Assembly (NCBI RefSeq): GCF_041227145.1
Contig: NZ_JBGFSP010000003.1
Coordinates: 558,001-622,000, forward strand
DNA: 64,000 nucleotides
Origin: Bacteroides sp. AN502(2024)
Lineage (GTDB): Bacteria; Bacteroidota; Bacteroidia; Bacteroidales; Bacteroidaceae
Direction of reading: 5' to 3'
Below the pieces are notes generated by a model that had not been told where the DNA came from, did not search any database, and worked only from the letters and a program-made list of their open reading frames with translations. The first letter of the stretch is position 1, and the number at the start of each line of letters is the position of its first letter. A program made the position numbers and the translations under genes. This document shows positions 21,418-24,809 of this stretch, in pieces.

Positions 21418-21573
21418 CCTATTGACTTGTATTCGAATTCATTCTTAACGAGACTGATTCTTTTCAATGTTTCCATATTCCTCAATACATAAATCCAACG
21501 TTCAAAATCTTCGAGACAATGTGCAAAGTCAAAACAAAGTGTTCACCATATTGAAACAGAGCATTTCGCTGCA

Positions 21574-21771
21574 GGATCTACTCCGTCGCGCGTATGCCGT
21601 AACCAACGCATACTCATTCACAAGAATTTCGAGGGACTTGCCGAGAGGGGCAAATGCTCCATGGGTTGGTTCTTCGGATTCAAGCTGCACCTGATAATCA
21701 ATGACAAGGGGTATATCGGACAAGCATTGTTTGAAAACCTATTCCTTAACGGCATACAACTGACCACACAA
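21574..21771 (+). pseudogene. IS982-family transposase relic with internal deletion
   Basis: One frame reads STPSRVCRNQRILIHKNFEG, then GLAERGKCSMGWFFGFKLHL, and continues to GYIGQALFENLFLNGIQL, which is the central DDE region of IS982-type transposases known in Bacteroides. Between IINDKG and GYIGQ the segment holding the middle of the catalytic core is missing; the junction falls in a short word, GACAAGGGG, that resembles both ends. The N-terminus and C-terminus are absent and the flanks are unrelated AT-rich DNA. The element is dead. It ends just before the sigma/barrel gene. Confidence 0.75.
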
Positions 21772-21865
21772 AGAATACGAATGTTAAAATATCGAATAGT
21801 ATGCAGTCTTTTGGACTTATATCTATCATATTTAAAACGGAGTGTCGTATAGAACTTAAAAACAC

Positions 21866-23377
21866 ATGAAACAAAAAAAACTTATAGAATTATGCAAAAA
21901 AGGAGATAAGCAAGCTTTAAGCTGGCTCTACCAAACCTATGCCGATAAGATGATAAAAATATGTTTTCATTACGTTACTGACAGGCAAATTGCACAAGAC
22001 CTTCTACACGACGGTTTTATCATCATCTTCACCTCTATAAATTCACTGCGTTCTCCTGAAAAATTAGAATACTGGATGGGAACGATTATGAAAAATATAT
22101 CTTTAAGATATTTGAAACAATGCAGTTCGATATCCACAACCCCTTTAGAAGAAATGAGCGAAGATGAAGAGCCTATTGATACATTTCCCTCTAATGATTT
22201 CCCAGCTTACAAAATAATGCTCAAAATGATAGAGTCACTTCCGGAAGGCTATAACAAAGTTTTCAAATTAGCTGTACTAGAAGGATTATCTCACAAGGAA
22301 ATCGGTTTATTGTTAAATATAGCTCCTCATTCTTCCTCATCGCAATTATCAAGAGCAAAAGATTTATTGCGCAAACTCATCTCCCAATACTATACTATGA
22401 TTGGATTAGTCATATTGTCATCTATTATTTTTATACAAATATGGCTATACACATATAAAAAAAACATTACTGCAGAACATTGTATTACAACTACACAGAA
22501 CGAAAAAAAACAAAAAAACGAAGACTTATTGCCAAAAGATTCTATAAAAACTATTTCGAATCATGCAATTACTATCCCCCAGTATGCAGATTCTAAATCT
22601 ATAAGAAAGATACCCAAACAAATGATTATTTTACAAGACAGTGTCGCAGAAGGACAAGATAGCATTAAACTCTTTAATCAGCAGATAATAGAAAATCAAG
22701 AAACCAAAGAACGGAAAGAGTCTTATAGCACCTATACCCCCCAACAACCATCCAACGATAAAAGAAATTGGTCGTTGGCTTTATCTTATTCAGGTGGAGA
22801 AAAACGAATCAACTCTCACCAATCAAGAATTCCCAGTGATATTTCATCCGGACATTCCAAGGAGGTACTGGAAGAATCACACCATCATTCCCCTATCACA
22901 TTATCGCTTTCGCTACGTAAGAATATAAATGAGTATTGGGGTATAGAAACCGGGATACAATACACATACCTGCGTTCCGACTTCACTGTCATTAGCGATT
23001 CTTATTTAGAGAAAACATGCAAAATTAATTACATAGGAATCCCGATCAAAGGTTCTTTCAATATATGGAAGAAACAAAAATTCTCTCTATATACTTCTGC
23101 AGGAACGACTTTGGATATACCTATAAGGGCTACTTCAGAAGAGCTCACATCTAAAAATGGGCAAATTATATTTCAAAAGAAGAGTAGCCTATATCCACAT
23201 TTACAGTGGTCAGCCGATTTTGGTATAGGCATCCAGTATCACATAACTCCTTCTATCGGAATTTATGCAGAACCTAATTTACGATATTATTTTCATAATG
23301 GAGATAGACTGAATACAATCCGGAGCGCAAAGCCATTCAATGTAACATTGCCTATAGGTATTCGACTATCTTGGTAA
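21866..23377 (+). CDS. ECF sigma factor fused to a transmembrane helix and outer-membrane beta-barrel
   Basis: This 503-residue protein combines parts that are normally separate. Residues about 14-85 form sigma region 2 (IAQDLLHDGFIIIFTSI) and about 115-172 sigma region 4 with the helix-turn-helix EGLSHKEIGLLLNI. Residues about 177-196 are one transmembrane helix, about 197-298 a polar Lys/Gln-rich periplasmic linker, and about 299-503 an outer-membrane barrel with alternating strands ending in the aromatic GIRLSW. The natural reading is a sigma domain held at the inner membrane by a protein that also spans the outer membrane. Separate Dma-type dual-membrane anti-sigma factors are known in B. 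thetaiotaomicron; here the sigma factor itself carries the barrel. Activation by cleavage is inference. The gene is AT-rich compared with its neighbours. Confidence 0.85.
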   Translation: MKQKKLIELCKKGDKQALSWLYQTYADKMIKICFHYVTDRQIAQDLLHDGFIIIFTSINSLRSPEKLEYWMGTIMKNISLRYLKQCSSISTTPLEEMSEDEEPIDTFPSNDFPAYKIMLKMIESLPEGYNKVFKLAVLEGLSHKEIGLLLNIAPHSSSSQLSRAKDLLRKLISQYYTMIGLVILSSIIFIQIWLYTYKKNITAEHCITTTQNEKKQKNEDLLPKDSIKTISNHAITIPQYADSKSIRKIPKQMIILQDSVAEGQDSIKLFNQQIIENQETKERKESYSTYTPQQPSNDKRNWSLALSYSGGEKRINSHQSRIPSDISSGHSKEVLEESHHHSPITLSLSLRKNINEYWGIETGIQYTYLRSDFTVISDSYLEKTCKINYIGIPIKGSFNIWKKQKFSLYTSAGTTLDIPIRATSEELTSKNGQIIFQKKSSLYPHLQWSADFGIGIQYHITPSIGIYAEPNLRYYFHNGDRLNTIRSAKPFNVTLPIGIRLSW

Positions 23378-23462
23378 AAAAACAACAATTATCATGCAGT
23401 CTTTCGAAGAATAATTTATCATAATTATAGAGAGTAAATTATATCAATTTAAAACTATTATT

Positions 23463-24245
23463 ATGCAAGATCGACATGAGAACCGAAATATCTATTTCAA
23501 AGAGTTGTCTATAACAAGCAGAAACTATTTTATCCCCTATATCCAATGCTGGCATCCGGTAGAGGCTACAATGAATGTGTTGGAAATCGGTTGTGGTGAG
23601 GGAGGGAATTTACTTCCTTTCTCTGAAATAGGATGTAATACCACCGGGGTTGATTTGGCAGAAAGTCGTATTAAAGATGCAAGAACTTTTTTTAACGAAT
23701 CCCATACAAAGGGCGAATTTATAGCATCAGACATATTCAAACTAAAGAAGTTGAATCGGAGTTTTGATATTATCATCTGCCATGATGTACTTGAGCATAT
23801 TACCCGGAAAGAACTGTTCTTATCTGATTTGAGCAAATATCTGAAACCACAAGGCATTGTTTTTATCTCCTTCCCGGCATGGCAAATGCCATTTGGAGGT
23901 CACCAACAAATATGCAGGAATCGGATCTTATCCCATCTGCCTTTTATTCATTTACTCCCCGTTTCTATATACCGATTACTTTTAAAAGTTTTCAAAGTAG
24001 ATGCAGATTGTATCAAAGAATTGCTGTCCATCAAAAAGACCAGTGTATCAATAGAATCATTTGAAAGATTAATAAGAAAAACAAATCTAAGCATACTAAA
24101 TAGGCAACTATGGTTCATTAATCCTCACTATGAAATAAAATTCGGGCTACCTCCCTATAAATTGAATCATACGATTTCCCAAATACCTTATCTGAGGGAT
24201 TTTGCAAGTACTAGTTGTTTCTATCTCTTAAAAGAAAAAGAATAA
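23463..24245 (+). CDS. Class I SAM-dependent methyltransferase
   Basis: A 260-residue protein whose SAM-binding motif I is VLEIGCGEGGNLLPF (about 40-54), followed by the acidic GVDLAESRI (motif II) and IIICHDVLEHI (motif IV region). The C-terminal half resembles methyltransferases of small molecules or sugars rather than rRNA, but no substrate can be assigned. It lies 85 bp after the sigma/barrel gene on the same strand and is similarly AT-rich, so the two may have been acquired together. Confidence 0.85.
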   Translation: MQDRHENRNIYFKELSITSRNYFIPYIQCWHPVEATMNVLEIGCGEGGNLLPFSEIGCNTTGVDLAESRIKDARTFFNESHTKGEFIASDIFKLKKLNRSFDIIICHDVLEHITRKELFLSDLSKYLKPQGIVFISFPAWQMPFGGHQQICRNRILSHLPFIHLLPVSIYRLLLKVFKVDADCIKELLSIKKTSVSIESFERLIRKTNLSILNRQLWFINPHYEIKFGLPPYKLNHTISQIPYLRDFASTSCFYLLKEKE

Positions 24246-24323: not shown

Positions 24324-24809
24324 TTAAAAATAGAATCCGAATCCTATCTTCACACCGAAACGTGAGTTATCGGAGTCATCAAAACGCCATTTGTAATAAA
24401 CAGCCGGTTCGATCGTTACTGTTTTGGAGAGGAAGTACGCATATCCGGCTTCAATGCCCAATCCCCAATCGCTGTTATGGCTACCACCCTTATAGCGGAC
24501 ACGTTCCCAGTCAAAACCACCCCCGAGATAAATCCCCGTAGTATTGAAATAACAACGCATTCCTGTACCTAGTGTATATCTATCCTTCGGCTGCGACCAG
24601 TCTGCTTCAAGATTCACCATTAATGCAAAACCATCTGCCAAAAATGTACCGGCTTGCGCACCAATAGCCAATTTGGCATCCTCATTTTTACTGTAGGAAA
24701 AATCCAGTCCTGTCACGGAAGGATTGAGAATCATCGTTCCTTTCTCAAATTGTGCCTGTGCAGTGAAAGAGACTGCCAATAAGCAAAGTGCCAAAGCTAA
24801 TTTCTTCAT
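24324..24809 (-). CDS. Small outer-membrane beta-barrel protein
   Basis: A 161-residue protein with a signal peptide cleaved after AQA (about residue 20), then alternating short strands rich in Gly and aromatics (IYLGGGFDWERV, WGLGIEAGYAYF) ending in FGFYF, an outer-membrane C-terminal signal. It is probably an eight-stranded barrel of the OMP_b-brl or OmpA-like type. Function is unknown. It is 12 bp downstream of the small membrane gene and probably belongs to the cstA transcript. Confidence 0.82.
   Translation of the reverse strand: MKKLALALCLLAVSFTAQAQFEKGTMILNPSVTGLDFSYSKNEDAKLAIGAQAGTFLADGFALMVNLEADWSQPKDRYTLGTGMRCYFNTTGIYLGGGFDWERVRYKGGSHNSDWGLGIEAGYAYFLSKTVTIEPAVYYKWRFDDSDNSRFGVKIGFGFYF

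Follow-up and report, generated by a model that had tools for sequence, protein, structure and literature searches.

The window, the whole 64,000-nt stretch of Bacteroides sp. AN502(2024) DNA that was analyzed, harbors a gene in which an ECF sigma factor, a transmembrane helix, a linker and a predicted outer-membrane beta-barrel are joined in one intact reading frame, followed by a methyltransferase gene (Table 1). The ECF sigma identity of the N-terminus is based on Pfam scores above the cut-off and on a match of 65.8 bits to TIGR02937 (cut-off 42.9), and the fold agrees. In the AF2 model a single helix spans residues 154-217 and covers the membrane segment. The pLDDT lies below 50 over residues 204-298, which marks the linker (about 100 residues) as disordered, and the OmpA/OprF-like barrel has tryptophan as its last residue. 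The membrane helix directly follows sigma region 4, and profile models detected no anti-sigma domain in between. A previous reading based on the sequence only had proposed sigma regions 2 and 4, a helix at residues 177-196, a linker of roughly 100 residues and a barrel with an aromatic end, all of which were confirmed by Pfam, AF2 and the intact frame of 503 aa. It had also called for a structure prediction of the chain, and both the AF2 model and the fold assign residues 299-503 to a barrel. A chance beta pattern was rejected on the basis of Pfam, the AF2 model and the fold.

Table 1. Features of the fusion locus; positions refer to the window and residues to the fused protein.
Feature	Position	Strand	Basis or remark
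Predicted ECF-type promoter of the fusion, TGCAGTCTTT-N13-ATCAT	21802..21829	+	64 nt 5' of the ATG; own-genome pattern match
Fused sigma / transmembrane / linker / barrel gene	21866..23377	+	503 aa, single intact frame
Sigma-70 region 2 (residues 21-85)	21926..22120	+	Pfam
Sigma-70 region 4 (residues 117-166)	22214..22363	+	Pfam
Transmembrane helix (residues 177-196)	22394..22453	+	Homologue hydropathy, AF2 helix, flank charges
Disordered linker, presumably periplasmic (residues 197-298)	22454..22759	+	Low pLDDT, weak conservation
Predicted outer-membrane beta-barrel (residues 299-503), C-terminal Trp	22760..23374	+	Pfam, AF2, fold, homology to Dma barrels
Second predicted promoter copy, TGCAGTCTTT-N13-MTC type	23395..23422	+	Between fusion stop and methyltransferase ATG; own-genome match
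Payload: class I SAM-dependent methyltransferase	23463..24245	+	260 aa; Pfam Methyltransf_11, E 2e-17

A protein search with the window protein scored 7998 candidates, 1653 of them at E <= 0.001, and a scan of named genomes yielded 145 relatives, from which 80 loci were retained. The search for the same fusion in other Bacteroidales that the sequence-only reading had suggested was thereby successful, as sigma domain, helix and barrel are encoded in one frame at 77 of these 80 loci. They derive from Bacteroides (B. faecis, B. salyersiae, B. muris), Parabacteroides faecis, Prevotella, Segatella copri, Hoylesella, Muribaculaceae and others. Since the frame is intact in the window as well as across the relatives, a frameshift or stop between sigma domain and barrel is excluded and neither a frameshift nor a chimeric assembly is accepted as the source of the fusion, which is thus real. 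The closest named-genome relative of the window protein belongs to a record labelled as a Bacillota MAG (Lachnoclostridium sp. UBA7122), most likely a misbinned Bacteroidales contig. At E <= 1e-45 matches were found in 12 of 101 genomes of the same family, the own genome included, with the match broken or in two pieces in G013 and G088. An order-wide search at this threshold, which distant fusions escape, recovered 3 of 247 genomes, again including the own.

A positively charged N-terminal flank of the helix is expected for a cytoplasmic N-terminus, and a terminal tryptophan for the end of a BAM-type barrel. Both the more positive N-flank and the C-terminal tryptophan were found in 72 of 76 intact homologues (the 77 intact loci with L093 additionally omitted). 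In an alignment of 68 of the best 120 of the 1653 relatives, sharing 41-84% identity with the window protein, the commonest residue averages 76% in sigma residues 1-88, 80% in sigma residues 113-172, 63% in the barrel and only 31% in the linker, where the gap share is 7%. Because the columns of sigma domain and barrel are conserved while the linker drifts, both ends look to be under selection, and the tether chiefly for its existence.

The closest known counterparts of the fused protein are found in the same order. Dma of Bacteroides thetaiotaomicron is described as a dual membrane-spanning anti-sigma factor with the ECF21 sigma factor Das (PMC13088901), and a similar sigma factor with a barrel-bearing anti-sigma factor is reported for Phocaeicola vulgatus (PMC9308784). 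The own genome contains, in addition to the fusion, two split pairs that match the Das/Dma layout described in B. thetaiotaomicron (PMC13088901): a sigma factor of 185-186 aa, directly followed by a helix and barrel protein of 349-400 aa with a short N-terminal domain. Split sigma factors (15 in total) and fused ones (12 in total, plus one broken copy) occur together in each of the 11 named genomes searched. Each of the 15 split sigma genes is followed by a Dma-like gene, as judged on length, N-terminus and helix; they are therefore termed Das-like here, a label taken from gene order. A tree was built from 100 sigma domains, of which 68 are fused, 17 split and 15 from other ECF sigma factors of the own genome. 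Each of the three sets forms one group, with SH-aLRT values of 89, 99 and 98, respectively; the fused sigma factors are sister to the Das-like group instead of being nested inside it, and the other ECF sigma factors fall outside both. This was a quick tree with long-branch warnings among the other ECF sigma factors, from which 14 of the 80 loci had been omitted (near-duplicates by eye as well as L068, L085 and L095). The barrel profiles of fused and Dma proteins align with an hhalign probability of 100 (E 5e-56, 165 columns, 33% identity). The sequence-only claim that a sigma factor and a Dma-type dual-membrane sensor are fused therefore holds for the barrel by homology and for the sigma domain by its sister position.

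The fusion shares with Dma the arrangement of transmembrane helix, disordered tether and C-terminal barrel. According to profile models, the N-terminal anti-sigma domain of Dma is missing from the fused family: E 0.66 was the best score that a model of this domain gave for any of 200 fused-family sequences (the best 120 of the 1653 proteins plus the 80 loci, some partial or redundant). In a first control the model recovered 112 of 113 Dma proteins at E < 1e-5, a weak result because these proteins are all closely related to a single training lineage and one of them duplicates a training row exactly. It is replaced by a leave-out control, in which training rows with >= 60% identity to the tested Dma were removed. 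Here 17 of 17 Dma proteins ranked above all 200 fused-family sequences and 16 of them scored E 5e-5 or better; the weakest (L112, E 0.077) was still above every fused sequence. Sister sigma factors, homologous barrels and a negative anti-sigma model with a working control thus make it well supported that the fused protein is the equivalent of Das and Dma combined, less the anti-sigma domain, and that region 4 is joined straight to the membrane helix. In three near-complete genomes with fused genes (G021, G067 and G071, 97-100% complete) searches for split Das (E <= 1e-18) and for a split Dma barrel (E <= 0.01) were negative, so the split partner is not always present. The sequence-only statement that no anti-sigma protein is needed is borne out to this extent: the domain is absent and three genomes have fusions without detected split Das/Dma.

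Three further candidates for fusions were not accepted. C3:2906298-2908046 carries a stop between sigma factor and Dma and hence is a split pair. P0138 (TetR-Dma) and P0143 (Das-Dma) were set aside as likely chimeras, each being one sequence on one contig, with the join inside the anti-sigma domain in the former and a part of sigma region 4 lost by eye in the latter. If real, P0138 would be of interest, as a TetR-type domain is joined to the transmembrane and barrel part of Dma on this metagenome contig.

The regions upstream of many fused genes have the pattern TGCAGTCTTT-N13-(A/C)TC in common. In its strict form, TGCAGT-N17-MTC, the motif is present in 38 of the 67 upstream regions of 200 bp that remain when those of >= 70% identity are removed from a set of 79, compared to a mean of 0.065 and a maximum of 2 in dinucleotide shuffles. 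When two additional -10 letters are required, 36 regions show a spacing of 17 and seven a spacing of 18, with three at most for any other spacing from 10 to 25. Of 78 loci (81 loci, with L068, L085 and L095 omitted beforehand), 49 have the strict motif in the first 150 nt after the stop of the fusion, against a mean of 0.09 and a maximum of 2 under a Markov model. The remainder of the loci, 738 kb on the same strand, contains the strict motif five times; two of these are plausible further sites. The first precedes the L099 fusion by about 300 nt, and the second lies in L037 within the called CotH frame but, by eye, ahead of the likely lipoprotein start of that gene. In the own genome, TGCAGTNNTT-N13-MTCHW matches four times (reversed control, one match): the sites at 21802 and 23395 flank the fusion and the other two lie inside long open frames elsewhere. 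TGCAGTCTTT-N13-MTCWT, a pattern whose strictness excludes clades with a different -10, has five matches in four of the 101 family genomes, and its reversed control two. Two of the five are at the window locus and one is just past a fused gene (G103), while the G026 match lies an estimated 0.6 kb past the fused frame and the G108 match is in a genome without a detected fusion. Between clades the -10 element varies and includes TATCAT, CTCCTT and GGACTATA. The strict motif is absent from 29 of the 67 upstream regions (15 lack even TGCAGT) and from 29 of the 78 downstream regions (21 lack even TGCAGT). Nine of the 10 loci in a rumen Prevotella clade have no TGCAGT in the 200 nt upstream, and the same nine have none past the stop. 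Taken together, matching predicted ECF-type promoters upstream of the fusion and just past its stop are well supported at the sequence level. In L141 a third TGCAGT was observed at 2657, some 660 nt beyond the stop of the fusion; its -10 is changed in a similar way, and by eye an inverted partial self-copy follows it.

The promoters also point to the sigma factor that reads them. Both promoters are present at 41 loci, and at 38 of these the self and the payload copy begin their -10 with the same base. The identity over the 8-nt -10 element is 5.78 within loci versus 4.63 +- 0.19 for mispaired copies (2000 mispairings, maximum 5.34), an excess that is partly due to shared ancestry, which mispairing leaves in; the spacer shows no excess (3.73 within loci, 3.71 mispaired). 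In the three genomes G021, G067 and G071, all five fused genes have TGCAGTCTTT somewhere upstream and three of the five also just past the stop; in two of these loci, L137 and L141, the -10 has been altered to a GGAC form in both copies. Since the -10 elements covary and the promoter is kept where no Das/Dma was detected, the fused sigma factor is likely the reader of both promoters, and it appears to activate itself and one neighboring gene. TGCAGTA is present in 5 of 16 Das-like upstream regions, including that of one own-genome pair (L002), so that split Das could cross-read these promoters.

The gene behind the second promoter differs between loci. According to automatic ORF calling, 27 of 81 loci, including that of the window, have a methyltransferase of one cluster close to the fusion (21 as next gene, four as second gene and two on the opposite strand). 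A radical SAM-SPASM gene is next in 19 of 81 loci, and a Gfo/Idh/MocA oxidoreductase gene follows the radical SAM gene in 18 of 20 loci holding that cluster. CotH kinase genes are next in nine of 81; 13 loci have other same-strand genes, ten have no same-strand gene and three no complete next gene. Further payloads are a glycosyltransferase 2 with a PMT_2 protein, a PBP-like lipoprotein, a serpin, an acyltransferase and a large protein with a weak match to a secretion tail. The strict downstream motif accompanies 18 of 19 radical SAM, eight of nine CotH and 17 of 27 methyltransferase loci, three of 13 loci with other genes, one of ten without a same-strand gene and all three contig-end cases. 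On a tree of 78 full fusions, again a quick tree with long-branch warnings, the payload label requires 22 changes with the remaining loci pooled as one class, and strongly supported branches force at least eight changes for methyltransferase, 10 for radical SAM and four for CotH. In the close relatives L057 (7714-10580) and L067 (2871-4404) the flanks are 86% and 93% identical and the payloads between them differ; between L043 and L039 similarity stops 86 nt past the fusion stop. These comparisons indicate repeated exchange among relatives of the gene that follows the second promoter. Pairs with the same payload exceed the barrel identity expected from their sigma identity by 0.020, more than in all 1000 label shuffles (maximum 0.0137), but as labels are clustered by descent an association between barrel and payload is only suggestive. 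With the paired promoters, the methyltransferase as target, the exchange of target genes and the broad distribution of the family, the locus goes well beyond the sequence-only reading, which had recognized the fusion of sigma factor and sensor and missed all four.

PADLOC gave no match for the fusion protein. The matches of the methyltransferase to mad2 (E 9e-19, residues 31-140) and of a radical SAM payload to pVip (3.5e-5) were read as generic superfamily similarity. The methyltransferase probably acts on a surface or envelope molecule. The 161-aa outer-membrane barrel protein (OMP_b-brl) encoded just beyond the methyltransferase at 24324-24809 on the minus strand was rejected as a target, as the own-genome pattern search found no promoter match there. 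On the other side of the fusion, positions 21493-21849 contain what is left of a DDE transposase gene (Pfam DDE_Tnp_1_3, E 1.5e-21), and its reading frame extends into the promoter region of the fusion. In the Prevotellaceae loci L050, L053, L054 and L057, AbiEi/AbiEii type genes (identified by PADLOC in L054 and by clustering in the others) and a gene that resembles a recombinase by eye are located upstream of the fusion, which suggests a mobile setting in these four loci.

On the whole we consider it probable that the fused protein is a one-protein switch from the surface to the promoter, which is silent while tethered, is freed by proteolysis upon an envelope signal and then activates itself and the adjacent payload. 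The ECF sigma domain would be cytoplasmic and anchored in the inner membrane through the helix that continues from region 4, and a disordered tether would cross the periplasm to the OmpA-like barrel in the outer membrane. This localization, the inactivity while tethered, the proteolytic release and the signal are what we infer. Tethering would keep the sigma factor from productive promoter use until barrel assembly fails, the barrel is disturbed or a ligand binds. The periplasmic part would then be cut first, followed by a site-2 protease cut in the membrane, and the freed sigma factor would take RNA polymerase to its own promoter in a positive feedback and to the payload promoter, here that of the methyltransferase. 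Release of this kind is described for IutY, a membrane protein that combines a sigma factor with a periplasmic part and from which Prc and RseP free the sigma factor (PMC5411451). The own genome encodes one M50 site-2 protease, which says little, as M50 proteases matched in 14 of 14 control genomes. Because the sensor is itself a barrel, failed or disturbed barrel assembly is a reasonable guess for the signal, if a tentative one. In P. vulgatus a sigma gene paired with a barrel-bearing anti-sigma factor is induced by an envelope-acting toxin (PMC9308784).

The strongest alternative, although unlikely, is that the uncut sigma factor works at the membrane and the barrel acts through conformation or clustering. 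ToxR and CadC are regulators that are active at the membrane without cleavage. Region 4 of the fused protein runs into the helix without an inhibitory domain, so that only its position visibly restrains the sigma factor. However, only about ten residues would separate region 4 from the bilayer, which should be awkward for the holoenzyme, a disordered linker is a poor relay of conformational change, and IutY as the nearest studied design found uses cleavage (PMC5411451). Control in trans, in which an anti-sigma domain such as that of split Dma holds the fused sigma factor and the barrel represents half of a two-protein sensor, would be in line with the joint presence of fused and split forms in all 11 named genomes and with the sister position of their sigma groups. 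It is rendered improbable by G021, G067 and G071, which have fusions and the promoter without detected split Das/Dma, even if a more distant anti-sigma factor would have escaped detection. Still less credible is a scenario in which split Das reads both promoters while the fused protein acts as a decoy or sink: the 5 of 16 Das-like regions with TGCAGTA show that a similar -35 can occur, but the -10 of the Das operons with TGCAGTA differs by eye, the motif is retained where no Das was detected, and the self and payload -10 covary. A decaying or artefactual fusion without function, to which the broken copies in L068, L095, L127 and G013 might point, can practically be dismissed in view of intact frames at 77 of 80 loci and of conserved sigma and barrel ends with a drifting linker.

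Compared to Das and Dma, the proposed switch combines sigma factor and sensor in one protein without an anti-sigma domain, and its loci add a second promoter for an adjacent, exchangeable payload; the helix, the tether, the homologous barrel, the sister sigma factors and, in the minority of Das-like regions noted above, a similar -35 are shared. With IutY (ECF243) of Pseudomonas putida, a sigma and anti-sigma factor in one protein (PMC5411451; PMC8999054), it shares the layout: cytosolic ECF sigma factor, membrane segment and periplasmic regulatory part form one chain in both, the periplasmic side of the fusion being suggested by flank charges. IutY, however, works with the separate outer-membrane receptor IutA, whereas the fusion carries its own barrel. 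ECF48, ECF52 and ECF53 likewise have a fused C-terminal transmembrane regulatory extension (PMC8999054), but they are actinobacterial and contain a zinc-finger domain, and the word "barrel" does not occur in the main text of PMC8999054. In Pseudomonas aeruginosa the OprF barrel is linked to the response of the ECF sigma factor SigX, but SigX, OprF and CmpX are separate proteins for which a non-covalent complex is proposed (PMC8999054). Word searches of open-licence literature matched no title or abstract opening that describes a fusion of sigma factor and barrel. The parts are thus known from Dma and IutY and the combination is absent from the titles and abstract openings matched, which is not a claim of absence from print; the newest part is the cassette behavior, with paired promoters and exchanged payloads.

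It is on balance likely that the locus represents a portable cassette, composed of a protein that reaches from the surface to the polymerase, its own promoter and a matching promoter for any gene placed behind it, of which the payload, perhaps together with the barrel, is exchanged among Bacteroidales. A single sensing design would in this way serve many different responses at the surface. Outer-membrane signals are normally relayed by several proteins before they reach a sigma factor. A single chain from surface to promoter would, if true, be an unusually short route and provide a clean system for how a tethered sigma factor stays silent. As the predicted regulon in the own genome consists of two promoters at one locus, the whole circuit is within reach of two reporters, and the gene might serve as a single-gene biosensor part. 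The exchange of payloads suggests that the fusion is a general sensor module of gut and oral Bacteroidales.
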